A stretch of DNA of 37,916 bases, taken from NCBI RefSeq assembly GCF_900188065.1, contig NZ_FZNQ01000022.1, positions 1-37,916 on the forward strand, given 5' to 3'. Positions 14,491-28,395 of this stretch are shown piece by piece (the first letter of the stretch is position 1; each line of letters starts with the position of its first letter). The notes under the pieces were generated by a model. That model saw only the letters and a program-made list of their open reading frames with translations, was not told where the DNA came from and did no database searches. A program made the translations under genes and the position numbers. This stretch comes from Halorubrum vacuolatum (GTDB taxonomy: Archaea; Halobacteriota; Halobacteria; Halobacteriales; Haloferacaceae).

Positions 14491-14563
14491 GCCGACGCCG
14501 GGATTTGAACCCGGATACCGACCGTGACAGGGCCGGATGCTCACCGGATTACATCACGTCGGC
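14491..14563 (-). tRNA. tRNA-Asp (anticodon GTC)
   Basis: 73 bases: acceptor GCCGACG/CGTCGGC, D-arm ATGT-AATCCGGTGA-GCAT, anticodon stem CGGCC/GGTCG with loop CTGTCAC, T-arm CCGGG-TTCAAAT-CCCGG. Discriminator G, the aspartate identity base. Reads GAC and GAT. Confidence 0.92.
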
Positions 14564-14576
14564 ACGCACATGTGAT

Positions 14577-14651
14577 CGCCCCGGCCGGAATCGAACCGGC
14601 GGCCTCTGGATTCAAACTCCAGCGTCCCTCGCCAGCGGAGACTCCGGGGCT
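14577..14651 (-). tRNA. tRNA-Gln (anticodon TTG)
   Basis: 75 bases: acceptor AGCCCCG/CGGGGCG with six pairs and an open A-G end, D-arm GTCTCC...GGGAC, anticodon stem CTGGA/TCCAG with loop GTTTGAA, variable loop AGGCC, T-arm GCCGG-TTCGATT-CCGGC. It reads CAA. A weak first pair is compatible with a Gln tRNA. It is the first tRNA of the array. Confidence 0.82.
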
Positions 14652-15523
14652 TCACACAGCCGTAGCTCTGTCTCTGGGAAAGCGTACTAGCGGCTCGTCG
14701 TGCGCTCGGCGCGCAGAGAACCGCTCGTTCGCTCCACTTGCAGGAACGAACGCAAGTCACAGCGCCGCGAACATCATCCGTCATAGTCGCCCGGATATGA
14801 AAAACGGACGAGTTACTGGATGAATGCAGGCGGCAGTCCCGTGTTCCCCGGCCCCGAGCGGGTAATCCGAATGGGGGCCAAGTTATGCGGGAGAAAGTCT
14901 CCGGAGATCGTCGGAGTGCGTCGAGTTCTCGGGTTCGACGCACGTCCAGCGATTGGTATCCGGGCGTTCCACACGCTGGTCTTGTAGATACTCGCCGGAC
15001 ACGCGACCCGCGGCTAACGGTGAACGAACAGGCCGCGGTTCGAGGCGAGTATCCGTCATCGTGTGGAATCTCATTGAATATCGCTTTGTGGTTGACGTCG
15101 CTTATTCGTCAGCATGGCAATTGTATTAAACTTAGTTGGGGTGTGTGAACTTTGAACAAAGAGGAGATATCTCACCTATCCACAATAGTAGATTGATCCA
15201 AGTTGGTTCCTTACTATCATATCAAATGGAAAAGAAGGGCTTCGTCGATCGTTCTTCACGCAGTTTGCAAATAATCGGAAAATGGCTTTTTGGGCCATCT
15301 ATGTGCTGAATTTTCGTACTTCAGAATCATATTCACCCTAATCAAACTTACGATTCAGGGTTTTAGACCCTCTCTGCTACGGTTTCGGCATTGGGGTAAT
15401 TCAAGTGGCCGGTGTTTGAAGATTATCGGATAGAACAAAATCACGAGAAACCTTTTCGAATTCACCTCTTTCCTGGCAAGTCTTTATGCGTAACCAGATC
15501 CATTAAGTAAAATTACCCAAATC
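14652..15523. other. Non-coding region between the tRNA array and the transposase-like gene
   Basis: No gene was found. On the minus strand the part next to the array is foldable: hairpin CGTTCGTTCC/GGAGCGAACG (14752-14726), nested stems AGCGG/CCGCT with TGCGC/GCGCA (14725-14689), and GGCCCC/GGGGCC (14879-14850). From about 15060 the composition becomes clearly A+T-rich, unlike the surrounding DNA. A TATA-like tttaata on the minus strand near 15126-15132 could start an array transcript. On the plus strand tctttatgcg near 15480 lies about 40 bases before the transposase ATG. Confidence 0.4.
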
Positions 15524-17293
15524 ATGGCCACCCATACCGATCAGTTTGCGTCGATGACAAGACACGCGAACAAAGACCGTGTAGATGAATTTACGTCTTT
15601 CAATCCTTCCGCTACCGACGACATCGTCATTTCACACCCTAATGGTGGACGATCTGAGATTGAGCTACAGAAACCATTGCTCGTAGCGATGGCACGAGAA
15701 AACAAGTACGAACCCTGTAGTGACGAGACCGATGGCGACGAATGTGTGGATCGGATTTTCGATGAAGCGCTGTGTGACGTCGCTGAATTAGCGCTGGACA
15801 CTGCAGGGCTAAATGAGAATCTGGTTGCTCTCCCGAAGTTACGTGCATTGATGATTCGTGTGGCCCGAAATCTCGACTCATTTGAAGAACTATCCACGCA
15901 TATTTCACAGTACTCGCCTGAAGAAATCGAGGATTTCGGGCTACACACGGCCTATGGGACATCAACGTATACGAAAGCAGCGAAAAAGCTGAGAAAGGAA
16001 GATACGTTCGAATTATTGATTGAAGCGACCTTCATCACTGTTCACGCGCTGTTCTGGAACGGAGTTCCGATCCCAGAGTCAGTCAAAAATCAGTATGATC
16101 TGTCGTACGATGCGGGACCTGCAGCGTCCGATTTTTCTAGAGGGACGCGACAATTAGCGCTGTATACTCTTGCTGAGGACTTGATTGAGATTGTTGTTTC
16201 GAACCTTGACTTTCAGCGAAGCGCCAATAAATCACGGGAACTCAGGAGTCTACTCGGAGTTTTTGCCCATGCTGCGTACAACGGAGAAAGCATCGAGAAT
16301 TACGATCAGACTGCCCAGCACTCGTTCGAGCTCGATTCTGCATTCAGCGGACCAACCATTCGTGAACATATCGATGGTCTATACCTGTGGCAGATCGAGG
16401 AAATGTTCGACGACATCAATCAGGCGCTACTCGAATACGTCATCGACTCGGGGATCGTATCCCGACCTGTTCTGATCTCGTATGACCTCACGAACATCCA
16501 AAGTCTCGAACTTGAGGAATACGATGAGTCATTTCTCACCGAGGATGGCCGCTGGCGATTTGTGTCCCTTTCATTCACAGACCCTGATCTCGAATTCGCA
16601 TTCGGACTCCGACTGCTCAAATCAGAAGCGCAGCGGGCACGCGTGCTAAAGAACTTCCTTCGAAGCCTGACCTCAATGGCGGATGTAGAACTGTTGATGG
16701 CCGATCGAGGATTTGATGGCCGGGAAGACATCGAAGCCTGCCGGGCGTTCGTTCCAGGTCGCTGGGTAATCCTTGCACAAGACTACAGCGACACCCGCGA
16801 CGACGACTATGCAGAGCTCCGTGAAGAACTCAAACCTGGCGGAACCGCTGTTGTCCAAGACGCAGGATATGAGAATCTTCACCCTCCCGTTCGGTTGATC
16901 GGATACTCTGGGAGCACAGATGATACTGTCGGACCAGTACGGGCATTTTACACTGACATGGATGTTCCGTCCGACAAAGAACAACAGAAGGAGCTGATCA
17001 CGCAGATCAATTTCCGGTACAATCAGCGAGCGAAAATCGAATCGATGTTTCGAATGGCCAAGAACGCGTTCGACGTCTCCACCGATACGGACAAAGCAGC
17101 GCGGAAATCCTTCTACTTCCATATGTCCGTCCTGTTCTACAACCTGTACAAGATCGTTAACACCGTGCCCGCACCGAATAACGGGCTCGAACTCGACACT
17201 ACTCAGAAGGAGCTACTCGAAGTCATCCGGAACCTCGCTTTTCGCGGACCAACTCGCCCCACCGCACTCACGTACCTGTTGGAACATTCGTAA
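15524..17293 (+). CDS. DDE transposase-like protein (IS4-type fold)
   Basis: 589 residues. The catalytic triad of an IS4-like RNase H-fold transposase is visible: Asp321 in LISYDLTNIQ, Asp394 in LLMADRGFDG, and Glu506 in YNQRAKIESMFRMAKN. The last is followed by the KSFYFHMSVLFYNLY helix typical of this group. The N-terminal 300 residues are long and helical and probably bind DNA. The gene is more A+T-rich than its neighbours, a sign of transfer. Its TAA shares one base with the ATG of a PCNA-like gene (TAATG), so the two are translationally coupled. No convincing terminal inverted repeats were found by eye, so whether this is a complete mobile element is open. A domesticated role is possible. 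Confidence 0.8.
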   Translation: MATHTDQFASMTRHANKDRVDEFTSFNPSATDDIVISHPNGGRSEIELQKPLLVAMARENKYEPCSDETDGDECVDRIFDEALCDVAELALDTAGLNENLVALPKLRALMIRVARNLDSFEELSTHISQYSPEEIEDFGLHTAYGTSTYTKAAKKLRKEDTFELLIEATFITVHALFWNGVPIPESVKNQYDLSYDAGPAASDFSRGTRQLALYTLAEDLIEIVVSNLDFQRSANKSRELRSLLGVFAHAAYNGESIENYDQTAQHSFELDSAFSGPTIREHIDGLYLWQIEEMFDDINQALLEYVIDSGIVSRPVLISYDLTNIQSLELEEYDESFLTEDGRWRFVSLSFTDPDLEFAFGLRLLKSEAQRARVLKNFLRSLTSMADVELLMADRGFDGREDIEACRAFVPGRWVILAQDYSDTRDDDYAELREELKPGGTAVVQDAGYENLHPPVRLIGYSGSTDDTVGPVRAFYTDMDVPSDKEQQKELITQINFRYNQRAKIESMFRMAKNAFDVSTDTDKAARKSFYFHMSVLFYNLYKIVNTVPAPNNGLELDTTQKELLEVIRNLAFRGPTRPTALTYLLEHS

Positions 17294-18048
17294 TGCCCAT
17301 TCACATAGCTCCCACGACCCTCCGTGAGACGATCCGCCCTGGATTAGCCGTGCGAAAAATCGGGGACTGTTGTGTCGATGTTGGCCCAAATCTGGTCCGA
17401 CTACGCGTTCAATCAGAGGACAAAACCGCGTATATGAACTACGAACTCCTACCACAGTCCGTGGATTCTTTGCTCACCAGCAAGTCAAGCAGTTTCTGGA
17501 TCCGTCTTGAACCCATCAAAAACTTCCTGGACGTAGGTACCAGTGAGGAGGTTTCCGTCTCTTTCCCCTTCGAAACGACCGATGCCACAATGGTTCTCCA
17601 GTCTGCTGGTCTCAGATACCGATTCCCATCAATAACACCTGTCTATCGGGTATTCGATAAACCGTCCTATGATGCCGTAACCACAGTCTCGATCCAACAC
17701 CGGCCGTTCGATCGCGCCGTCCAGGTAGCAAATCTCGTCGGAGAAGAAATGCATGTCAGTGTGGTCCCAGATGCGCGACGGGTTGAATTTTCTGCTAAGG
17801 CCGGGGACGATAGTGATTCATTCTCGTACTCGGTTCCTGACGAACAAATCAGCAGCATCTGTGGGAGCGCGTCATCACTCACCATCTCAATTGATCGGCT
17901 CCGGGATATCACACCACTCATTCCGGACACCACTTCCGCATCACTCCAACTCACTCGTCATTGCCTCATCTATCAAGTCGAATATCCCATCTCAGGAGCC
18001 GAGCTGACTCTGTATATCGCAAAGCGACACGGCCTCATTCAAGGGTGA
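17293..18048 (+). CDS. PCNA-like sliding clamp encoded with the transposase
   Basis: 251 residues, almost exactly PCNA length (about 247). The two-domain clamp pattern is visible: MPIHIAPTTLRETI at the start of domain 1, FDRAVQVANLVGEEMHVSVVPD at the start of domain 2 (helix followed by strand), FSAKAGDDSDSFSYSVPD, and SSLTISIDRLRDITPLIPDTTS before the final strands ending YQVEYPISGAELTLYIAKR. These correspond to the PCNA motifs for the inner helices and last beta hairpin, but the sequence is divergent from chromosomal haloarchaeal PCNA. Clamps encircle DNA and tether polymerases, nucleases and some transposases. The one-base overlap with the transposase gene suggests the clamp serves transposition or repair of its insertion site. 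That role is inference. Confidence 0.75.
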   Translation: MPIHIAPTTLRETIRPGLAVRKIGDCCVDVGPNLVRLRVQSEDKTAYMNYELLPQSVDSLLTSKSSSFWIRLEPIKNFLDVGTSEEVSVSFPFETTDATMVLQSAGLRYRFPSITPVYRVFDKPSYDAVTTVSIQHRPFDRAVQVANLVGEEMHVSVVPDARRVEFSAKAGDDSDSFSYSVPDEQISSICGSASSLTISIDRLRDITPLIPDTTSASLQLTRHCLIYQVEYPISGAELTLYIAKRHGLIQG

Positions 18049-18103
18049 TTCCACCACCTTCGACACTCCTCGTGACAACGTATTGCGCCGCATTGTAGAG
18101 AGC

Positions 18104-20407
18104 TCAGCCACCAAGCAACCTCGAAAGGATTCCCCGCGACTCATCTCCGTCGGGTGTTACCTCTGCTTCAGACGCCTTGTCGGTAGTCCCATCGACCTCC
18201 GCAGGCCCGTCCAGTAGTTCATCAACTGAGTAACCGACCCATTCGGCGAACTCCTCAGGCGCGCCGATATAGACACTTGTCCCGGACTTATCCGACATGA
18301 ATCGCTTGTCCAGCCGCTTCTCGTAATCGTAGACCTCCCAGTCCTCGCGGTCGAAATCAGCATTGATCCCGTCGGGTTCCGACTCGAAAGTGACGCGACC
18401 ACCTTGAATGTCTCGCTGCCACTTTATTCGGCCCGTGTCGTACATTTTTTCTGCCGGTTGATCCGCAGGGAAGTACTCCGGCTGTTTTCGATCGGCCTCT
18501 TCGTAGAACTCACAGAAGATTCGGCGGACATCTTCGACAGTACCGCTCCCTTCAGTCCAGGGCTGCTTGGTGAGCATCCGACGAGCGACATAGCTGAAAA
18601 TGGGATTTTCTCGTTCAAGCACCTCCGCCAAATCCTCTTGAGCGTCGTGGAATCCGGGATCCTCAGGATTCGATGGGAACGAGACATCCATGCTGAGGAT
18701 TTTCATCCGGTTCCGAAACTCCGATTTGGGGAGTGCGTCGTTAGTGGTGAAAATCAGGCAGGGCTGATCGACACTGGTTGGTGTCCAATCACCCCAGTAG
18801 TTCCGAATCGGACTCCATTTCTCGATTTTACTCTTTTCGGCGTCGATGATCGCATACGGGAAGCACGTGTCCCATTCCCGAATACCACGAATCTCCTCGA
18901 CACCCACATCGTCAGCATCGACACCGGACACGACAGTGTTGTCTGATAGTAACCGTAGGATGTACTCAGTGAGCTTGTCTTTTCCAGCATCGCTGTTACC
19001 TTCGATGTACAGATGCTGAAGGACGTTGTCAAGCGTCCGTGAGGGGGAAGAGAGCTCATTTGCGTACTGATTAGCGAACGGAGCCCAGAACCCGTAGAGG
19101 AAGGCTTCGTACATCTGGGCCATCACCGCGTCGGGCGTCTGGGTGTAACCGTGGTCCCGGACCGTCTCGACGTACGCTTCGATAGTGGCGAGGCAGTGAT
19201 CCAGCACTTCCGGGGTCGGTGGATCGGTTGCCACCAAGATCATGTCTTCCTCATCGCCGAGGACAACCTGATCAGCTTCAGGGATAACGGACATTTTCGG
19301 GATCTTGGTCGATTCTCGGACCTGGCTGTTGTACGCACTCAGGGGTGCTGTGATGCTGTGATCCTCGACCGTTGCTCCCCGATTTCGGAGACTGGCTCCG
19401 AATTCATCGGCGACATCCTTATCGATCTTACTCGTCCCCATCCGAATTTTCTCCTCTGGCGTGCGAACCCGAGGTCGATCTAGCGTATCCGTGAGCGACG
19501 TCTCGTGATCAGATTCAACGAGACCGACATCAGGAGATTCTTCATCTGCCTCCTTGTCTCCGGATTCATCGGCTGAATCGTTGCCGTCACCGGTGTCGCC
19601 GTCCTCATCTGCGCCATCAGGCTCGATGATTGTCCGGTCGGCCTTCTCCGGTTCATCGATGAAGGCCACAGTTTCATCGGCTGACTCGGGATCGTCCACG
19701 ACAGCCGTGACCTGGTCGGCGATATCTTTCAGGTCTTCCGTCGCGTCTTGGTTCAGCGCGGCCGTATCGCTCATATTTAGGTCGCCAGTTCCGACCCAGT
19801 ATTCGATACGGTCTTCTCGCTCTTCGGGAGAATCTGCCTCTTCGAGCGCTTCAACCAAGCCCTCAAGGAGCGTCTGATTGCTGTAGCGTTCCCGGTATTC
19901 ATCGATGAACGCCGCAAACTCCTCATCTAATTCTGTTCCGACTTCCGTCGTGAATATCGACACCTGGTTCGTGTGATACTCCCATGAGTTCACTGAAAGA
20001 TTCGCCGACCCATGAACTAGTTTCACCGTGTCATCCGGCATCACGATCCGGTAAATTTTGGAGTGGACGATCTTCCGATTCTTCAGCCGAATCGTCAACC
20101 GGTCATCCTGACGGAGCCGAACGAGTGACCGTGCCGTCGAAACGTCATCAACCTGATTGGCGTAATCGTCGGCGTTCCCCACGAGTACGTCAAGTGAACC
20201 GACATCGTACTCCGTCAGCATCCGAACCATCAACTCCGGTGTCTCAGCGTACGTTATTGCATCAACGTGACGAGCACCCTCGAAGAGCTCCAAAAAGTCT
20301 TCTCGCTGTTTCACCATTGTCAGACGGTAGCCGGCTGCACCGGAACCGTAGAACTCGGGCATGTCCGCGAACTTGTCAAACGAAATGTTCGCTGTGATTT
20401 CGTCCAT
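18104..20407 (-). CDS. PLD-type nuclease fused to an AAA/superfamily-3-like ATPase
   Basis: 767 residues. The N-terminal domain has one HKD-type site: His115-Ser-Lys117 in IVHSKIYRI, followed by VHGSANLSVNSWEYHTNQ (Gly-Ser-x-Asn at 133-136). This points to a PLD-fold nuclease working as a dimer. An acidic linker (about 240-320) follows. The C-terminal part has a P-loop EGNSDAGKDKL (469-479), a Walker B-like strand YAIIDAEK (518-525) and the IFTTND sensor (552-557), resembling primase-associated or superfamily 3 helicases. It is the last gene of the Mre11-Rad50-NurA-HerA operon, 114 bases after HerA. Coupled PLD nuclease and motor domains are common in antiviral systems, so a role in defence or DNA end degradation is likely but not proven. 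Confidence 0.75.
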   Translation of the reverse strand: MDEITANISFDKFADMPEFYGSGAAGYRLTMVKQREDFLELFEGARHVDAITYAETPELMVRMLTEYDVGSLDVLVGNADDYANQVDDVSTARSLVRLRQDDRLTIRLKNRKIVHSKIYRIVMPDDTVKLVHGSANLSVNSWEYHTNQVSIFTTEVGTELDEEFAAFIDEYRERYSNQTLLEGLVEALEEADSPEEREDRIEYWVGTGDLNMSDTAALNQDATEDLKDIADQVTAVVDDPESADETVAFIDEPEKADRTIIEPDGADEDGDTGDGNDSADESGDKEADEESPDVGLVESDHETSLTDTLDRPRVRTPEEKIRMGTSKIDKDVADEFGASLRNRGATVEDHSITAPLSAYNSQVRESTKIPKMSVIPEADQVVLGDEEDMILVATDPPTPEVLDHCLATIEAYVETVRDHGYTQTPDAVMAQMYEAFLYGFWAPFANQYANELSSPSRTLDNVLQHLYIEGNSDAGKDKLTEYILRLLSDNTVVSGVDADDVGVEEIRGIREWDTCFPYAIIDAEKSKIEKWSPIRNYWGDWTPTSVDQPCLIFTTNDALPKSEFRNRMKILSMDVSFPSNPEDPGFHDAQEDLAEVLERENPIFSYVARRMLTKQPWTEGSGTVEDVRRIFCEFYEEADRKQPEYFPADQPAEKMYDTGRIKWQRDIQGGRVTFESEPDGINADFDREDWEVYDYEKRLDKRFMSDKSGTSVYIGAPEEFAEWVGYSVDELLDGPAEVDGTTDKASEAEVTPDGDESRGILSRLLGG

Positions 20408-20521
20408 TGTTGGTGCCGTGTTCAGTGATTTGAGGGTTGCTTTTATCGCGGTTTCTCCAGGCTCGCACCCTGCAGGGCGGCTCCGCAGTGTTCTTGGCTT
20501 GGCTTCATCATTTCCCCCTGA

Positions 20522-22165
20522 TCAGTCGAGGCTTTGCACCCCCGTCGAATCGCCCTCTCCGAAGTCCGCGCTCTCAGAACGCGTCGGTTCGCGCTGACGA
20601 GCGTCGTAGGCTTCTCGCCACTTGTCTATGACATCTAGGCTACCAGCACCGTGTTCCGTTCGCCGGGGTCGCACCTGAATCAGCGCTGGTGTGTTCATCG
20701 CGTCACCGGAGACGATCGCTTGCCCTGGTGTCAACCCAGGAAGTTCGCGGAGAACGTCTTCGCCAGCGGCTTCGACGGACTTTTTAATCGCGTCTTGGTC
20801 GTTCGGATTCCGGATTTTCATCGAAATCTGCGTCCCGCACTGGGAGAGAACGTCCTGGTCGATCTTCGATGGTCGCTGACTTATAATACCGAGCCCGAAC
20901 CCAAACTTACGGCCTTCAGAGGTGATCGTCCGCATAATTCCGAGCGAGGGAGCGTCACCCGATGTCGGAGCGAATCGATGCCCTTCTTCGAACAGGGCGA
21001 AGACCGGGTGCTCAACCTCGGATTCCCGACCACGAACATCGTTGAGCCGTTCCCGATAGAGACGGCGCAGGAGGACCGTTGTGATTAGTTGCTGATCGCG
21101 GCGGTCGAGTGTATCCATTTGGAGCACGGTACACTGTCCCGGGTCGATGATTTCGTCAAGCGGAACGTTCTCCTCTGGATCGAACAAGTCGTTACGCTGA
21201 ATTGATCGTCGAAGCCGCCACTCCAATGCGCCGACGCTGGCGTCATTACCGCCGAACTCGCTCCGCATTTCAGTCATAAGATCATCGATGCCCCACGTTT
21301 CGCTTTCTTGGTTCTGCATAGAGCGCCATGCCGTCGAGAGGCGGTCCTGCATCCGGTTACTCGGGTTGTCCAAGATCGCCATGACGTCGCCAATCTCCAG
21401 TTCGGAAATCCGGACTTGGAGGCGCTCAGGGTCGTAGTAGACGACGTCCGGTTCGTATCCGTCTTCCTCGCGGAAGGATTCGTGACCTTGCATCTCGGCC
21501 AAGGTGTCGTACTCGCCATGCGGGTCAAACACGAGGAGCGACGCCCGCGACGTCGGGCGCATCATCTCTTCGATCAATACCGACGCTGTGTAGGACTTCC
21601 CGCTCCCTGTGGCCGCGAGGATTGCCAGATGCGTTGAGGCGAATTCTTCGATGGGGATGTGAATGTTCGTTGCCCGCTCAGGTCGGTTCAGCAACCACCC
21701 GATATGGGCAACGCCATCAAGCTGGGTTACTTCGGTCTCGACCGTGTCGCATCCGAGGTTTGGGAGCACCGTTTCGAGTTGTCCATCCGGTGCGATCGAC
21801 AGTGGTGTTCCTGGGTCCGGAAGCTGCCGCGGGTTGGCAAAGGTCTCCATATTGGTATTGTAGAACCCGATGACCGTCGCTGTCATCCGGTACAGTTCCG
21901 TATCGTCAGTTGGTACTCCGAGTGTAGCAGCGACTGTTTCGGGTCCAACTTCCGGATCTGCAAGGAACCCTTCTGGGAGTCCCCGAATGAGTTCTCGGTT
22001 CGTCACCCGGGCAAACACCGACCGACTCTCGCCGTCTACTGTCACGTCGTAGGTGATGAACTCGCCCGTTTTGATCGGCTGGTCGGCCGGAGTTACGAAT
22101 ATGAACTCGTTTGGATCCTCGCCCGGACCGGCGACCGTCCCGATCACTTCCTCGTGTCCCGGCAT
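20522..22165 (-). CDS. herA: HerA-like DNA translocase
   Basis: 547 residues from the ATG at 22165. The N-terminal HAS-barrel is visible (VIGTVAGPGEDPNEFIFVT, then GEFITYDV). The RecA-like core has Walker A ATGSGKS (residues 185-191), Walker B FALFEE (389-394) and IISQRPSKI (428-436) as the conserved Arg-containing motif. HerA hexamers pump DNA into NurA nuclease and work with Mre11-Rad50 in end resection. The preceding gene's stop overlaps this ATG as TAATG, with a G-rich ribosome site just before it. A frame start at 22198 is less likely. Both its context and its partners match the archaeal mre11-rad50-herA-nurA cluster. Confidence 0.88.
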   Translation of the reverse strand: MPGHEEVIGTVAGPGEDPNEFIFVTPADQPIKTGEFITYDVTVDGESRSVFARVTNRELIRGLPEGFLADPEVGPETVAATLGVPTDDTELYRMTATVIGFYNTNMETFANPRQLPDPGTPLSIAPDGQLETVLPNLGCDTVETEVTQLDGVAHIGWLLNRPERATNIHIPIEEFASTHLAILAATGSGKSYTASVLIEEMMRPTSRASLLVFDPHGEYDTLAEMQGHESFREEDGYEPDVVYYDPERLQVRISELEIGDVMAILDNPSNRMQDRLSTAWRSMQNQESETWGIDDLMTEMRSEFGGNDASVGALEWRLRRSIQRNDLFDPEENVPLDEIIDPGQCTVLQMDTLDRRDQQLITTVLLRRLYRERLNDVRGRESEVEHPVFALFEEGHRFAPTSGDAPSLGIMRTITSEGRKFGFGLGIISQRPSKIDQDVLSQCGTQISMKIRNPNDQDAIKKSVEAAGEDVLRELPGLTPGQAIVSGDAMNTPALIQVRPRRTEHGAGSLDVIDKWREAYDARQREPTRSESADFGEGDSTGVQSLD

Positions 22166-22830
22166 TATACCACCCCCCGTCGCTCGTGTGCCTGCCATTC
22201 AACGTTTTGCTCAACGACGTCCAACACGCGTTGATTTGGATCTTCGTTCGGCAAGACACTCCGCAGTCGGTCAATCAGGGCGACGATAACTTCGGCACCG
22301 AGATCGCCTGCGATATCGACGAGGCGGTCAATGTATGCCAACTGTATTTGACCGTCGATGGTGTGGAACGACGCAGTAATTTCGTCCGGACAATGATAGA
22401 CTGTATCGTCTACTTCGAGCGTCCAGCGAGGCATGCGATGCGTGGGGTCAGTGATGGTCCGATCCTCGTTGACCGTTGCAGTCCCGAGGAGTGCGACGCC
22501 AGCTAGGGTCGTGCGCTCTTCGATGTATCCGGGAGTGAACTGGGCTTGATCGTCCTGGGCTAGGCGCGGTCCGGTTCGTCCCTGGTCCGGATCGACCAGT
22601 TGTGTATCGTAGATCACGCCCATCACCGCGTGTTCCGTCCCATCAATCGTCTTTTTAATGAAGACTGGTTGGCCGAACTCGCGTTCGCTGAGTTTCGGCG
22701 GACGCTCGCAATCACGATCTTTGTACACCTCAACGACGTAATCGAGGTGGCTGTTCGAAGACACGATACTCCCGATTTGGACGCACGAATCGACATTCGC
22801 GGTCTCCATCTCTGTTGTTTGGTCTGTCAT
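22165..22830 (-). CDS. Small protein coupled to HerA, unrecognised
   Basis: 221 residues. The N-terminus (VGSIVSSNSHLDYVVEVYKD after correcting for the exact reading CVQIGSIVSSNSHLDYVVEV, residues about 16-35) looks like the opening strands of a HAS-barrel, the domain found at the start of HerA. The middle (DGTEHAVMGVIYDTQLVDPDQ) and the C-terminal helices (IQLAYIDRLVDIAGDLGAEVIVALIDRLRSVL) have no known motif. Its stop overlaps the HerA start, so the two proteins are made together. It may be an accessory subunit of HerA that uses the same barrel fold to bind the nuclease. That is inference from sequence pattern and position. Confidence 0.7.
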   Translation of the reverse strand: MTDQTTEMETANVDSCVQIGSIVSSNSHLDYVVEVYKDRDCERPPKLSEREFGQPVFIKKTIDGTEHAVMGVIYDTQLVDPDQGRTGPRLAQDDQAQFTPGYIEERTTLAGVALLGTATVNEDRTITDPTHRMPRWTLEVDDTVYHCPDEITASFHTIDGQIQLAYIDRLVDIAGDLGAEVIVALIDRLRSVLPNEDPNQRVLDVVEQNVEWQAHERRGVV

Positions 22831-22897
22831 GTGTTCGTTCGGTGGTTGAGGGTGATTGGCCGCTTTATGCTCTCGTCAGTTGTTCCATGGTGTGCTG

Positions 22898-24163
22898 TCA
22901 TCGTCGGCGGAGTTCTTTGCTCAGTGCCTTGGCATTCCACTCGACCGGCACATCGTTGGATTCGGCCCACCGCTGAACGATCCGGTGGAATTGTTGCCGG
23001 TCTTGGTGGTCGAGAACTGCGTCGCTGTCTGCTTGCTGGAGGATTTCCGGATACCCTCGTCCGATTCCTGCTTCAGCACGCACGATCTCAACGGTGTACT
23101 CGTACATCGAATCATACCCATCGGGCCCATCGCTTTGACAAAGCCAGCCAGGAAACTCGATCCGATCGAGACCTGCCCCGGGCGGAACGTTCAGGTATGT
23201 AAAAAGGATGTCATCACGGAACTCGTACGACTTGCCCTCGTACGTTGTCTGTAAGGCATCGATGCTCCCATCGCGTTTCGAGATGAACGGGATCGTCGTA
23301 TCTCCCCACGGACTCATCAAGTCCGTCAGGACGTGTGCGTCCGGAATGACGCGATCCGTCCCGAACTCCTCGCGCAACAGAAGCCGTGTCATCTTCACTA
23401 ACTCCGTTGCGTTCGATCCAGCGACGTACCCGACCAACGGAATTCGATGGTGCTGACTCGCCGCAATCACGCGACTGAGCGTCGAAATGTACCGCTCGCG
23501 GGTCTCCGGCTTCAACGGGTTCGCAAACGAAGCGATCAGCGGACCGTCGTAGAAGACGACCGGCGTGTGCTCGATGTCATCGCTCTCACGGGCCTCGGCA
23601 AGTTCGACGATTTGATCGATGAGCAACCCTCCTTCGTGTTCGAACCGGTGATGTCCGACGAGTTGTGAATCGACGAATCTGTAGTCTCCATCGTCTGATT
23701 CCCGCGTAACCTCATCGGGTGTCAGCAACCGACCTTCGACGCCACGGTCGAGTCGCCCTTCTGTGTGGTGATAGTTGACCGACCACGCTGCCTGAACATA
23801 CGCGAGCGGAACGTTGAATTCAGTCGTGGGGGGTAACTGTGACCCGTCTACAGCCATGACGGGAACGTCACGAAGGATGTCACGTGCCCACTCATTGACC
23901 TCTTCGTGATTATCCCACGCATCGCTCTCCGTATGGGGAACGACAATGCTGTCAATCTGGTCGAACTCGTCAGTTGGGTACGCTCCTGGATAAGAGGTAT
24001 CTCGTAGGGCGGCACGGATCTCCTCACTCGACCATTCCTTGGGTAGGCGCTGGAACGCGTCTTTATACCGGTCAGCGATTCCCGGTTCGTCTTCCAGATA
24101 CGCCTCAATCGTCTCGACGCTCGACTCTAACTCGGCAGCGACATCGTGTTTGTTGATCGTCAT
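22898..24163 (-). CDS. nurA: NurA-like 5'-3' nuclease
   Basis: 421 residues. The NurA domain (PF09376) is indicated by VMAVDGSQL (metal ligand Asp106), VVFYDGPLIASF (Asp206) and the later conserved YVAGSNATELVKM with its Lys. These are the hallmarks of this RNase H-like nuclease. The first 100 residues are helical and specific to this group. NurA forms a dimer that sits on the HerA hexamer and degrades DNA fed through it. The ATG overlaps the Rad50-like stop by one base (TGATG), so production is coupled. The length is close to the usual 350-430 residues. Confidence 0.85.
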   Translation of the reverse strand: MTINKHDVAAELESSVETIEAYLEDEPGIADRYKDAFQRLPKEWSSEEIRAALRDTSYPGAYPTDEFDQIDSIVVPHTESDAWDNHEEVNEWARDILRDVPVMAVDGSQLPPTTEFNVPLAYVQAAWSVNYHHTEGRLDRGVEGRLLTPDEVTRESDDGDYRFVDSQLVGHHRFEHEGGLLIDQIVELAEARESDDIEHTPVVFYDGPLIASFANPLKPETRERYISTLSRVIAASQHHRIPLVGYVAGSNATELVKMTRLLLREEFGTDRVIPDAHVLTDLMSPWGDTTIPFISKRDGSIDALQTTYEGKSYEFRDDILFTYLNVPPGAGLDRIEFPGWLCQSDGPDGYDSMYEYTVEIVRAEAGIGRGYPEILQQADSDAVLDHQDRQQFHRIVQRWAESNDVPVEWNAKALSKELRRR

Positions 24164-26880
24164 CAGTTCACGGTCACCTCCGACGCCTGCTGGTCCTTGC
24201 TCACAGAGATAGTGTAGTCCGTCATCGAGTCAAACGTCTGGTCGTGACTGATGACTGTGAGCTGCTCGAAGCTATCCAACTGCTTCAATTGCATCACGAG
24301 GTTCCGCTTCTTCTGCCGGTCCAAGTTCGCCGTGGGCTCGTCAAGGAATGCGATCCCGACCGACGCGAGCTGTTCGAGAATGGCAAGCCTGACCGAAAGC
24401 GCAGCCGCCATTTTTTCGCCGCCGCTCAGGGTCGAGAACGACTTCCGCACATCCGCGTCGTGAACGAGGATCTCGTAATCGCTCGTCCACTCTAGCGTCT
24501 CAGTGGATGTGCCACGGATCGATCGGAACAACTCGTTAGCACGTGCCCCGAGTCGATCCGTGATGATTTCGCGCATCTTCGGCCCGGCTTCCCGGACGTT
24601 CTCCCGGACCCACTCTGCGAACTGCTGGTCCGCTTTCAACTCTTTCAACTGCTGGAGCTTCTCCTGGCGCTCCTCCAATTTCGACTCTAACCGTTCGACC
24701 TCCTCGCGGACCTCCTCTAGCTCGTCCTCTTTGTGTTCCAGTGTCCGACGGTCGCCCGCAAGATCGCTCTTGAGGTCCTCTATTTCGGAGCCGAGCGTTT
24801 CCATTCGGTCTTCATCGAACGACTCCTCCGCCTCTTCGAGTTCGGTTTCCGTCTCATCGAGTTCCGTTCGAAGCCCCTCCAGTTCGGACTGCAACTCCTC
24901 GACGGTTTCTCGCCGCTCCTCAACTTGGGCGGCTTGCTGCTCGTGCTTGATGTAGGTCTGGTATCCCGACTTGGTCTCTTCTATCGTTGTTTTGACCTCA
25001 GCTAACTCATCGTCGAGACCCTCGTACTCGGCTAGCTCCTCTTCGATTTCTTCGAGGGCCTCTCGTTCATCCCGTAATTTCTCGCGTTTGGTCTCCAATC
25101 GGTCGGGGACGTCGCTGAGGTCTTCCACTCGGACCTCGGCCTTTCGGTACTCTTCGTGCGCTTCTTCCAACTCGTCGCGTTCTGATTTGAGTTCAGGGAG
25201 CTCTGCTAAGTCCTCTTCCAGCGCCTTTCTCTCTTTCGTCGTTTCTTCCTTTTCTGACTCCAGGTCTCCGACATCCTCTTCGAGCGAATCAATCCGCTCC
25301 CGCAGAACAGGGATTTTTCCAACACGTTCCTTGACTTCCTGCGCTTCCTCACGGCGGTCACGTAATTTGCTGAGTTCGTCACCGAGTTTCTCACGCTGGG
25401 TTTTGATTTCTTCAATTCTATCCTCGCGCTCCTCGATCGTCTCGGACCGATGTTCTTCGTCCAGCGGCCGGTCACAGGTCGGACACGGCGCATCGACGTC
25501 CGTATCGCGTAACCGTTCCAACTGTTCTTCGAGTCGCGCACGCTCCGATTTGAGTTGCTTGCGCTCGACTTCCAGCTCATTAATCTCAGCAGTGAGCTCT
25601 TCGGGGTTAGTGGTCTCGTCCCACTCCTTCTTGATTTCCGTGATCTCCGTCTGCAACGACTCGACGTCGCTCTTCTTTTCGTCGATTTCACTAGTGAGCT
25701 CTTCGACACGCTGCTCTAACTCTTCGACCTCGTCCTCGCGGTCTCGCAACGACTCTATCCGATCATCCAGTTCCTCGTATCGCTCTTTCTCGTCTTCACG
25801 GGTTTTCAGCGTTTCTTGAGCCGACTCTAACGTTTCTAAATCCGACTCAAGTTGGTTAACCTCGAACTCTATTTCTTGAATCGTGTCTTCCTGCTCATCC
25901 CACTTTGCTTCGAGTTCGTCACGCTTCTTTTCCTGCTTCTCTAATTCATCGAGTCGGTCATTTGCCTCCCGATGACGGCGGCATTCGTCACGATTCGCCT
26001 CGCACTTCTCTTGAGCATCCGCGGCCGCTTCAAGTTCCTCTTCAGCGGTTTTCAACTTGCTCTCGGTCGCACTAATCTCTTGGTTTAGAGACTTGATCGC
26101 CTGGTTGAGGTCCTCGATCTCCTCTTGGATCGATTCCAAGTCATTGTATTCTGACTCCTTCTGTTCCAGTTCGCCGCTTTTTCGGTCGATTTCGGCTTCG
26201 AGTGATTGGACCTCCGCAGCGAGTGACTCTGCGGTGTTCCGCTCGTCTGGAAGACCCTGTACTTCGGTCGTGAGACCGATGATATCGTCACGAAGATCCC
26301 GCTGCTGTTTTTCGATTGCGTCCGGGATGTCCTTCAGTGCCTCCCACGACTCTTCATACGCATCGAGATTCAGTAACGCATCGAACGTGTTCTTTCGATT
26401 GCCTGGCCGCTGCGCGAAATCGGACAGGAAGCGTGTCTGTGGTACACCGATACATGACTCCCACAACCCCTGTAGCTCATCTTTGCCCGCGACGTCGAAT
26501 CGGGCACACAACCAGCGAATCAATTCTTTCTTCGAGTCGATATCCTGATCGACCCACTCCTCAGTCTCGGGGTCGTACCGATGCACACCATAATTGGAGC
26601 GTCCGGCCGACCGAGTTACTCTGAACTGCTCGGTCCCGTTCTGGGTTTCTTGCTCAAACACCACCTCAACAGTCCCCGAGTTCGCCCCTTCTCGCACGAA
26701 GTCCTTGATGTTGACACGCCGTGGGAGGGAATCAAACAGCGCAAACCCGATCGCTTCCTGGATCGTCGATTTCCCAGCCCCGTTCTCGCCGAGGATTGCC
26801 GTTACACCCCCCTCAATGGGTACTTCAGTCCGGCCTTCGTAGGATTTGATGTCTTCCAACGCGACCTGTTGAATCTTCAT
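24163..26880 (-). CDS. Rad50/SMC-like ATPase with zinc hook
   Basis: 905 residues. The N-terminal P-loop is GENGAGKST (31-39) in a Rad50-type start (MKIQQVALEDIKSYEG). Two long coiled coils, extremely rich in Glu, Lys and Arg, flank a zinc hook Cys-Pro-x-Cys (CPTCDRPL near residues 466-473). The C-terminal head has the ABC signature TLSGGEKMAAALS (about 815-827) and Walker B IAFLDEPTANLD (about 842-853). Length and order match Rad50. It pairs with the Mre11-like gene just upstream, with a gap-free ATGA overlap to that gene's C-terminal frame. It is more divergent than a housekeeping Rad50 and likely belongs to this accessory cluster. Confidence 0.9.
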   Translation of the reverse strand: MKIQQVALEDIKSYEGRTEVPIEGGVTAILGENGAGKSTIQEAIGFALFDSLPRRVNIKDFVREGANSGTVEVVFEQETQNGTEQFRVTRSAGRSNYGVHRYDPETEEWVDQDIDSKKELIRWLCARFDVAGKDELQGLWESCIGVPQTRFLSDFAQRPGNRKNTFDALLNLDAYEESWEALKDIPDAIEKQQRDLRDDIIGLTTEVQGLPDERNTAESLAAEVQSLEAEIDRKSGELEQKESEYNDLESIQEEIEDLNQAIKSLNQEISATESKLKTAEEELEAAADAQEKCEANRDECRRHREANDRLDELEKQEKKRDELEAKWDEQEDTIQEIEFEVNQLESDLETLESAQETLKTREDEKERYEELDDRIESLRDREDEVEELEQRVEELTSEIDEKKSDVESLQTEITEIKKEWDETTNPEELTAEINELEVERKQLKSERARLEEQLERLRDTDVDAPCPTCDRPLDEEHRSETIEEREDRIEEIKTQREKLGDELSKLRDRREEAQEVKERVGKIPVLRERIDSLEEDVGDLESEKEETTKERKALEEDLAELPELKSERDELEEAHEEYRKAEVRVEDLSDVPDRLETKREKLRDEREALEEIEEELAEYEGLDDELAEVKTTIEETKSGYQTYIKHEQQAAQVEERRETVEELQSELEGLRTELDETETELEEAEESFDEDRMETLGSEIEDLKSDLAGDRRTLEHKEDELEEVREEVERLESKLEERQEKLQQLKELKADQQFAEWVRENVREAGPKMREIITDRLGARANELFRSIRGTSTETLEWTSDYEILVHDADVRKSFSTLSGGEKMAAALSVRLAILEQLASVGIAFLDEPTANLDRQKKRNLVMQLKQLDSFEQLTVISHDQTFDSMTDYTISVSKDQQASEVTVN

Positions 26881-27588
26881 TGGGTAGTCACCTCCTCTGG
26901 ACGGTCATCGTCGGCAGGACGTTCCTCGTCACTGCTCTCCTCCGGCGCATCTGATTCCTCCTCATCACGGAAGGGGTCCTCGTCGATATCGACAACTACG
27001 TTATCGGCTAATTCGGGGAACAGGTCCCGTCGTGCGGAGCTGACCGTATCAGAGATGTCCTCGACCGCCTCCTCGGCCTGCGCCATTTCGTGAGCGTTCC
27101 CCAGTATGTCTGCGACGTCTTCTGCCTTCTCAGCATACATCGACTCTTTCGCAATCGTCTCGAACACCTGGTCTTCCAACGCCGCTGTGTTCAATTGCCC
27201 ATCCTTGAACACGTCCTCTTCATCGATCTCTGAGATGAGTTGCTGCACATCTGCCGTCCGGATTCCACCTGCGTTCTCTTGCACGTACAGCGCATCACAC
27301 GCCTCTTCAGCATACGCAGCGAGTTCGTCAGTCCGGAAGTCGCCACGACTGAACTGAAGTGTCCCCGTGAACCGTAAGTCAAGAATCGGCCGACGCGGCT
27401 CACCTTCAGCCGTGTATTTCGGTTGCTGACAGTATTCTTGGACAGCTCCGACCTCGGCCTCGATCTGCTCGCGGAACGCTGATTCGAGTTCACCCGGCGA
27501 GTCGTGTGGGGTCACGTCGAACTCGATACGGTAGTACGGTCGGCGCTTGGTCTCGTGGTGTGCTATCTCAAAGCTGCACTCCCCCCCC
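26877..27588 (-). CDS. C-terminal part of the Mre11-like protein, in another frame
   Basis: This frame continues the Mre11-like protein after the eight-G tract at 27581-27588. It opens with GECSFEIAHHETKRRPYYRI followed by EFDVTPHDSPGELESAFREQ, which is the layout of the Mre11 capping domain (a beta-hairpin then a long helix). It ends with an acidic tail (DEDPFRDEEESDAPEESSDEE region). There is no good start codon of its own near the shift; an open frame extends to an ATG at 27752, but that part lies inside the upstream gene. Removing one G would fuse the two frames into a protein of roughly 500 residues. It overlaps the Rad50-like ATG by four bases. Confidence 0.7.
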
Positions 27589-28395
27589 ACCAGCGCCGCT
27601 CTCACCAGGCGAAAGCTCGACCGAGTAGTAACCGTGCTCCCACTCATCACGACCTTCGCGGGTGCTGTGTGCCTCCGGTGAGCCTGGATTGTAAATCCAC
27701 TCACCGGCCTTGTACCGCTTGTGGATGTGTCCGAGCGCGAGGTAATCGACAACTTCTTTCACATCCCGCAGTTCGGCGTGAGTGACTGTCCCGCCCAGCG
27801 TCGGAACTTCGTCTTCCATACCGAAATGCGCCAGCAGCATTGTGAACGCTGGCTCGCCGTGAAGTTCATTCGCTGTGCGAATCCCGTTCGCCACTTGTTG
27901 GAGCGCTCGATCCGTCTTCGCACCCCGCCACTGTAGTCCGAACACGCGAACGGGGCCATCGAACGCCTCGCTCTCGATATCGTAAAAGCCCGCGTAGTTC
28001 CCTGGATCTTCGCGGTCGTACGGCTCGAACCGAACGGTATCAGGATCGGCCGACAGATCGGCTTTCAGGAACACGATATGCCCGCGCTGGTGGAGGTAGT
28101 TTAGCCACGTGACGTCTCGTGGCGTCAGGTTTTCGTCGTGATTGCCTCGTGAGACCAGCACAGGCACATCGTCTGGAACGCGACTGAGTTGCTGTTCGGC
28201 CTGATGCAGGACCTTCGGGCGGAGGTCCCTGGAGTGGAACAAGTCCCCGGGTAACACGATAGCGTCCGTATCGTGGTGCTCCACCATGTCCCCAAGCGCG
28301 GCTTGCAGGGTCGATACCATGTCATCCTCTCGCTGTTTCAACCCGTATTGCCGGTGGCCAAGGTGTGTATCGGCAATGTGTGTGACTGTCAGCAT
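27568..28395 (-). CDS. Mre11-like phosphodiesterase, truncated by frameshift
   Basis: 275 residues. All five calcineurin-like motifs are seen: HIADTHLG (Asp9, His11), VLPGDLFHSRDL, VSRGNHDE, LLAHFGMED and LALGHIHK. It is therefore an Mre11-type manganese nuclease core. The frame then runs into eight Gs (27581-27588) and ends at a TGA giving the unnatural tail GGGGVQL; the expected capping domain follows in another frame. The gene is the first of a six-cistron minus-strand operon and is divergent from the AAA ATPase at 28477. The frame break is either a real mutation, a sequencing indel, or a slippage site. The nuclease domain itself is complete. Confidence 0.85.
   Translation of the reverse strand: MLTVTHIADTHLGHRQYGLKQREDDMVSTLQAALGDMVEHHDTDAIVLPGDLFHSRDLRPKVLHQAEQQLSRVPDDVPVLVSRGNHDENLTPRDVTWLNYLHQRGHIVFLKADLSADPDTVRFEPYDREDPGNYAGFYDIESEAFDGPVRVFGLQWRGAKTDRALQQVANGIRTANELHGEPAFTMLLAHFGMEDEVPTLGGTVTHAELRDVKEVVDYLALGHIHKRYKAGEWIYNPGSPEAHSTREGRDEWEHGYYSVELSPGESGAGGGGVQL

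Follow-up and report, generated by a model that had tools for sequence, protein, structure and literature searches.

The transposon Tn7 borrows the sliding clamp of its host, and a YREK motif near the catalytic glutamate defines DDE transposons of the ISH3/IS4 type. Closest to the locus described here are the clamp-binding insertion sequence families, of which passages of two papers give an account: IS1634 transposases bind both β and archaeal PCNA, with stronger β binding raising transposition (PMC4549789), and clamp contact is treated as a common link between transposons and the replication fork in a review that also mentions Tn7, through TnsE and the β clamp (PMC5371812). As described in these passages, such families use the clamp of the host by means of a QLxLF or PIP-type motif (PMC4549789, PMC5371812). 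Our locus resembles them in that transposition appears to be tied to a sliding clamp, and is unlike them in that the element encodes a clamp of its own and that no PIP-type motif was seen; a likeness to Tn7 would hold only if this clamp aims the transposase at forks. PCNA genes also travel in the Halorubrum virus CGphi46 and in genomic islands (L007 and L030), which are, as here, mobile elements with a PCNA. However, none of the virus or island PCNAs examined lies behind a transposase of the present kind, and that of CGphi46 matches our clamp weakly (E 9e-3). In a full-text literature search (titles and abstracts, with subscription papers mostly outside it), we found no paper describing a transposase followed by a sliding clamp that the element itself encodes.

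The DNA analysed, which we call the window, is a stretch of 37,916 nucleotides from Halorubrum vacuolatum (NZ_FZNQ01000022.1) and corresponds to contig C20 of G000, a haloarchaeal genome of 3.48 Mb. On its plus strand, positions 15524-17293 encode a 589 aa DDE transposase resembling those of ISH3/IS4 (ORF call, family profiles and catalytic alignment) and positions 17293-18048 a divergent PCNA-like sliding clamp of 251 aa (phmmer, profile, AlphaFold2 and Foldseek). The original prediction, that the transposase frame ends in TAATG and that the ATG within it opens a 251-residue protein, is exact in its coordinates, and in this stop/start overlap (17291-17295, plus strand) one base is common to both frames.

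The pairing recurs in other genomes, where the original prediction had proposed that it be sought, and we counted 17 pairs in four transposase clades (eight in clade A, which includes the window, four in B, three in C and two in D). Among 170 genomes of the window's family the transposase was present in five, each time with a PCNA-like ORF downstream. Homologues are thus not always clampless: the best 30 transposase loci among 391 haloarchaeal genomes comprised 14 that are followed, on the same strand, by an ORF for a clamp or clamp-like protein and 16 that are not, and the 12 strongest of these 30 (E < 1e-115) all had a clamp. Second matches of this class-wide search in G337 (E 1e-77) and G189 (E 1e-74), which came without a locus, were left out. 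Searches by family of 125 and 146 genomes added a clade-C pair (G451) and a clade-E pair (G358), the latter standing outside the count of 17. Starting from the clamps, all eight of clade A that were found adjoin a transposase (3/3 in the 170 genomes and 6/6 in the 391, the window being in both). The 1-nt stop/start overlap (TAATG, TGATG or TAGTG) is present in seven of the eight clade-A loci, the frameshifted locus of G122 being the single exception, and the spacing between the two genes is -7 to +88 nt in clade B, -4 to +3 nt in clade C and -4 nt in clade D. As the same gene order is kept with clamps whose identity to that of the window is as low as 14-19%, the pairing is more than chance, and on the sequences compared these data support the view that transposase and divergent clamp form one overlapping gene unit, a conserved trait of the family. 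In two clade-A loci of the eight, G122 (L032, 9826-12358) and G098 (L033, 6131-8613), an open clamp ORF follows a disrupted transposase frame, the disruption being due to either decay or sequencing error.

Clade D is counted with the caveat that its clamp is weakly supported by profiles, the hhalign probability against host PCNA and clade A being 51-58%. The clamp model built from its two sequences had a pLDDT of 43.3, with a better C-terminal half, and its 50 best Foldseek matches were all PCNA. The second ORF of clade E (G358; 227 aa, 8 nt past the transposase) gave no PCNA signal, and this clade was left out of the count. That ORF (L166 / L078, 5683-6366) lies behind a divergent transposase on the Haloarcula halobia plasmid NZ_CP119788 and is absent from the PLSDB gene table; the plasmid carries a segment of approximately 9.4 kb twice at 99.5% identity (L178 / L179), with the transposase frameshifted in one copy. 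The two clade-E copies are thus one 9.4-kb duplication and give no element ends. A plasmid search returned no clamp match and transposase matches only at 22-26% identity, among which that of Haloarcula halobia is the clade-E pair. Viral contigs searched with the clade-A transposase profile gave 40 pattern matches, none of which was confirmed, a phage search for the clamp returned distant PCNA only, and the genes next to the pair included no visible clamp loader.

The match of the window transposase to the NCBIfam ISH3 model (NF033541; E 2.4e-14) spans positions 4-297 of the 298 in the model, with a score of 53.1 bits against an equivalog cut-off of 225 bits, which places it outside the ISH3 family proper. 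Its match to Pfam DDE_Tnp_1 (E 3.5e-4) falls just under the curated cut-off, at 20.8 bits against 23. ISH3 was the best NCBIfam match in 13 of the 14 transposases scanned, and 11 of the 14 matched DDE_Tnp_1 at E ≤ 0.01. The catalytic triad (D321, D394 and E506) is intact and D-D-E is kept in all 18 clamp-linked transposases, in an alignment from which three of 41 transposase rows were dropped. The YREK motif is formed by Y499, R502, E506 and K513 (Y-x2-R-x3-E-x6-K), and its arginine and glutamate are present in 18/18 clamp-linked transposases, the lysine being replaced in three and the tyrosine in two. These residues mark the protein as an ISH3/IS4-type DDE transposase with a predicted RNase H-like DDE triad. 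D-D-E and YREK are common to the window-type transposases and the ISH3 family with its wider kin (IS4, IS1380, IS701 and IS1634); in contrast with ISH3, the clamp-linked transposases are 587-659 aa long against a 298-position model and the score is far under the family cut-off, and the window-type elements have a second, coupled gene for the clamp and gave no terminal inverted repeats.

Two side observations concern motifs of the transposase. The YREK lysine is kept in 15 of the 18 clamp-linked proteins, unlike most clampless sister transposases (L060-L066, L157, L158 and L161), where S, A, V or R replaces it. An N-terminal H-x-D-x-F motif was rejected as a signature of clamp linkage, being present in clampless relatives too.

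Docking of the transposase on a clamp through a PIP box was also considered and rejected, because neither a strict PIP box nor the QLxLF β-binding motif occurred in any of 41 transposase rows (partial rows included) and relaxed PIP matches in 15 rows numbered three, against 2.97 in shuffled sequences, i.e. no excess. The simplest docking model is thus without sequence support, and any contact between transposase and clamp must use another surface.

The second protein had been called PCNA-like and divergent from typical haloarchaeal PCNA in the original prediction, and both descriptions stand. By phmmer, the window clamp matches Haloferax volcanii PCNA (3hi8; E 5e-7). A profile built from five of the pair clamps matches PCNAs over the full length (best PDB match H. 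volcanii PCNA, E 3.5e-27) and, in the reverse direction, all 15 clamps of clades A-C are found at E 7.6e-6 or better by a profile made from 12 host PCNAs. Structure prediction for 17293-18048, which had been named as the check on the fold, gave a PCNA fold: the AlphaFold2 monomer model (15 sequences) has a pLDDT of 89.0 and a pTM of 0.87, its best Foldseek match is 3ifv_C (H. volcanii PCNA; E 1.2e-17, TMq 0.85, rmsd 2.2), and the 50 best matches are all PCNA or PCNA complexes. The protein is thus, according to this model, a PCNA-type clamp with the two-domain processivity fold, the same fold as in haloarchaeal PCNA (H. volcanii, PDB 3hi8 and 3ifv), from which it differs in being only 16% identical in the structural alignment, in forming a separate lineage in the tree and in charge, clade-A clamps having a net charge of -2 to -14 compared with -31 to -36 in four host PCNAs. 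No Pfam PCNA model matches the window clamp, so that Pfam alone would miss it; at E ≤ 0.1, PCNA_N was found in five and PCNA_C in one of 15 clamps. The host's own PCNA is apparently encoded elsewhere (a weak match on contig C37, E 1.8e-4). The inner helices of PCNA face DNA. As read from the clamp alignment together with the AlphaFold2 model, the four predicted inner helices of clade A carry basic residues at position 141 in all eight clamps, at 204 in seven and at 11 and 15 in six each.

We read the locus as the coding part of an ISH3/IS4-like transposon, a two-protein module in which the clamp most likely serves as an accessory transposition factor, and we give this reading somewhat better than even confidence. 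The alternative that survives best, which we nevertheless consider unlikely, is that the clamp acts on the ring of the host, forming hetero-rings with host PCNA or competing for its clients, and so regulates replication or repair around the insertion. The full-length PCNA fold, the absence of a PIP box from the transposase and the low negative charge of clade A, which would present a different surface in the same cell, all count for it, as does the formation of hetero-rings by crenarchaeal PCNAs given in passages of PMC3984812; however, strict linkage to the transposase and the overlap of the two genes suit a direct partner of the transposase at least equally well. More doubtful still is that the clamp fold now serves the transposase as a subunit or regulator, for example a DNA-binding or inhibitory one, that forms no ring and no longer encircles DNA. 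Such a role would fit the fast divergence of the clamp, which between the window and G342 is 52% identical compared with 70% for the transposase, and the very divergent clamps of clades C and D. Against it, clade A retains both PCNA domains and the basic inner-helix positions, and third codon positions still change most, in the clamp gene as in the transposase gene, between the window and G342.

Phylogenetic trees bear on how long the two genes have been together. In a transposase tree of 36 rows (five of 41 being dropped as near-copies or short), the clamp label needs two changes, and 11 clampless rows, from the 16 clampless loci, form one clade (100/100) that sits among the clamp-linked transposases; the broken N-terminal part of the G098 transposase was omitted from alignments and trees, as was, in A2, A4, A6 and A7, the part of the G122 transposase after the frameshift. 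The simplest reading of this sequence tree, whose rooting is uncertain, would be one gain of the clamp and one loss, and the existence of a related clampless clade indicates that transposases of this type do not generally need a clamp. The clamp tree, which took in six of the 12 host PCNAs and left clade E out, recovered clades A (99/98) and C (100/100), with B weakly (56/64), and grouped host PCNAs and two island PCNAs together (98/95), apart from the element clamps. Clamp clades A and C correspond to transposase clades, and for B the correspondence is weak; the trees conflict in the sister pairs within clade C and in the placement of clade D, which joins B by transposase and A (weakly) by clamp. 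As the clamps form lineages apart from host PCNAs, the two genes were paired long ago and the clamp is no recent capture from the host, and so long an association suggests that the elements supply a ring themselves for transposition or repair and do not use that of the host. The island PCNAs (L007, L009, L011 and L030) are themselves peculiar in having long acidic N-terminal extensions (319-369 aa), and those of L007 and L030 group with host PCNA and not with the element clamps.

The original prediction had also pointed to the element ends, and here a conserved left-end motif was found in 8/8 clade-A loci, but neither terminal inverted repeats nor a target-site duplication. This 37 bp motif, ATCGTTNNTNACGCAG...AATAATCGGAA in the window (15247-15283, plus strand), lies 247-277 bp upstream of the transposase, and similarity among the eight aligned clade-A upstream regions ends to its left. 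By leave-one-out score it ranked first in seven of the eight loci, and in the degenerate locus of G098 the best site was one base off; the motif is probably the left element end or a transposase-binding site, as judged from sequence conservation. Closer to the gene, a Gibbs motif, GGCAAGTCTTTATG (15475-15488, plus strand), which we take to be the TATA box of a probable promoter, has TATA-like counterparts 32-64 bp before the start codon in all eight loci, and it was rejected as an element terminus because it probably marks the promoter region. The right end is expected at 18049-18103, i.e. soon after the clamp stop codon, given that the neighbouring convergent gene ends at 18104 and that flank homology in relatives begins nearby, within 87 bp of the clamp stop in G420 (to an unrelated locus, and an upper bound only) and approximately 120 bp past it in G122.

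No inverted repeats emerged in 16 loci when ungapped arms were compared between 500 bp of upstream and 600 bp of downstream sequence, nor did a shared-motif Gibbs search reveal any, and gapped alignment of left ends with right flanks gave p 0.06 to 1.0 against shuffles in eight loci; no inverted copy of the left-end motif was found on the right side. In Halorubrum loci that share the left or the right flank, homology reaches as far as 15151 on the left side and resumes at 18207 on the right side. The two flanks were joined in no genome examined, and no clean or exact empty site was found among relatives with shared flanks; the difference between G122 and G129 extends beyond the element and gives no clean ends. 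The window genome holds no second copy or remnant. Since inverted repeat, target-site duplication, second copy, clean empty site and PIP box were all looked for and not found, we infer rather than observe mobility, clamp loading and fork targeting.

The surroundings of the pair differ between most genomes. In the window, it lies between a tRNA array and a block of PLD-like, HerA, NurA, Rad50 and Mre11 genes, and in G122 it adjoins a similar NurA/Rad50-type block and an Mrr-like gene. The block in the window (18104-28395) is convergent with the pair and encodes a PLD-like protein, HerA, NurA, a Rad50-like protein and, as assigned by eye, an Mre11-like protein. The array (10870-14651) comprises 14 minus-strand tRNA genes, as predicted, around a Ro60/TROVE gene (10970-12547), and at least eight further genomes of the genus have matches to stretches of it. 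A clade-B pair in G107 (L046, 3917-9288) is located beside a Ro60 gene similar to that of the window, whose clade-A pair borders a tRNA/Ro60 cluster of this kind at the opposite end; this may be coincidence or a target preference. A pair of tyrosine-recombinase-like genes was found within approximately 6 kb in seven of 16 pair loci (L119, 9021-13214; L124, 10724-13228; L047, 2897-5526; L122, 4196-7717; L033, 9531-12026; L123; and L125), compared with one of 17 other loci, which had been retrieved for different purposes and do not serve as a fair control. Two of these recombinase-like proteins were checked, and one matches Phage_integrase and the other no Pfam family.

These contexts bear on another doubtful alternative, that the pair is no longer mobile, or never was, and is a fixed module of DDE nuclease and clamp that has a host or defence role and travels in islands. 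The single copy, the lack of detectable terminal inverted repeats and the NurA/Rad50-type block beside the pair in both the window and G122 would suit such a module. However, contexts differ in most genomes, the distribution is patchy (5/170 genomes), the 5′ end motif is conserved, two copies appear decayed, and neither the transposase nor the clamp matched any PADLOC model at E ≤ 1e-3. That a transposase merely happens to precede a stray PCNA gene is a reading to which the clampless relatives lend something, but which we dismiss as extremely improbable, because the pairing recurs 17 times across four clades, with gene order and strand unchanged, and the trees agree on the main clades.

The reading that we favour, of a transposon with an accessory clamp, may be set out as follows. 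The element would measure approximately 2.85 kb, running roughly from 15247 to 18048-18103, and its overlapping genes would yield both proteins of the module, a DDE transposase and a dedicated PCNA-like clamp. The clamp would be put on DNA by the host clamp loader, or spontaneously, at a primer-template junction, which could be either a replication fork or the gaps at the insertion ends. Once loaded, it may hold or recruit the transposase, or else the enzymes of gap-filling repair, and would act independently of host PCNA. In a stronger form, which we offer tentatively and regard as possible rather than probable, such elements would constitute an ancient class of archaeal transposons with a private trimer ring at forks or insertion gaps, an obligate partner of the transposase that is independent of the host clamp, kept in at least four clades and lost in one.

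Several transposase families dock on the host sliding clamp, and because host clamps are essential it has been hard to test whether this contact serves targeting or repair. If an element brings its own, probably dispensable, clamp, that clamp could be removed, altered or exchanged in cells that stay alive. If true, this would be a rare case of a simple transposon keeping a replication-ring gene over long evolutionary time.
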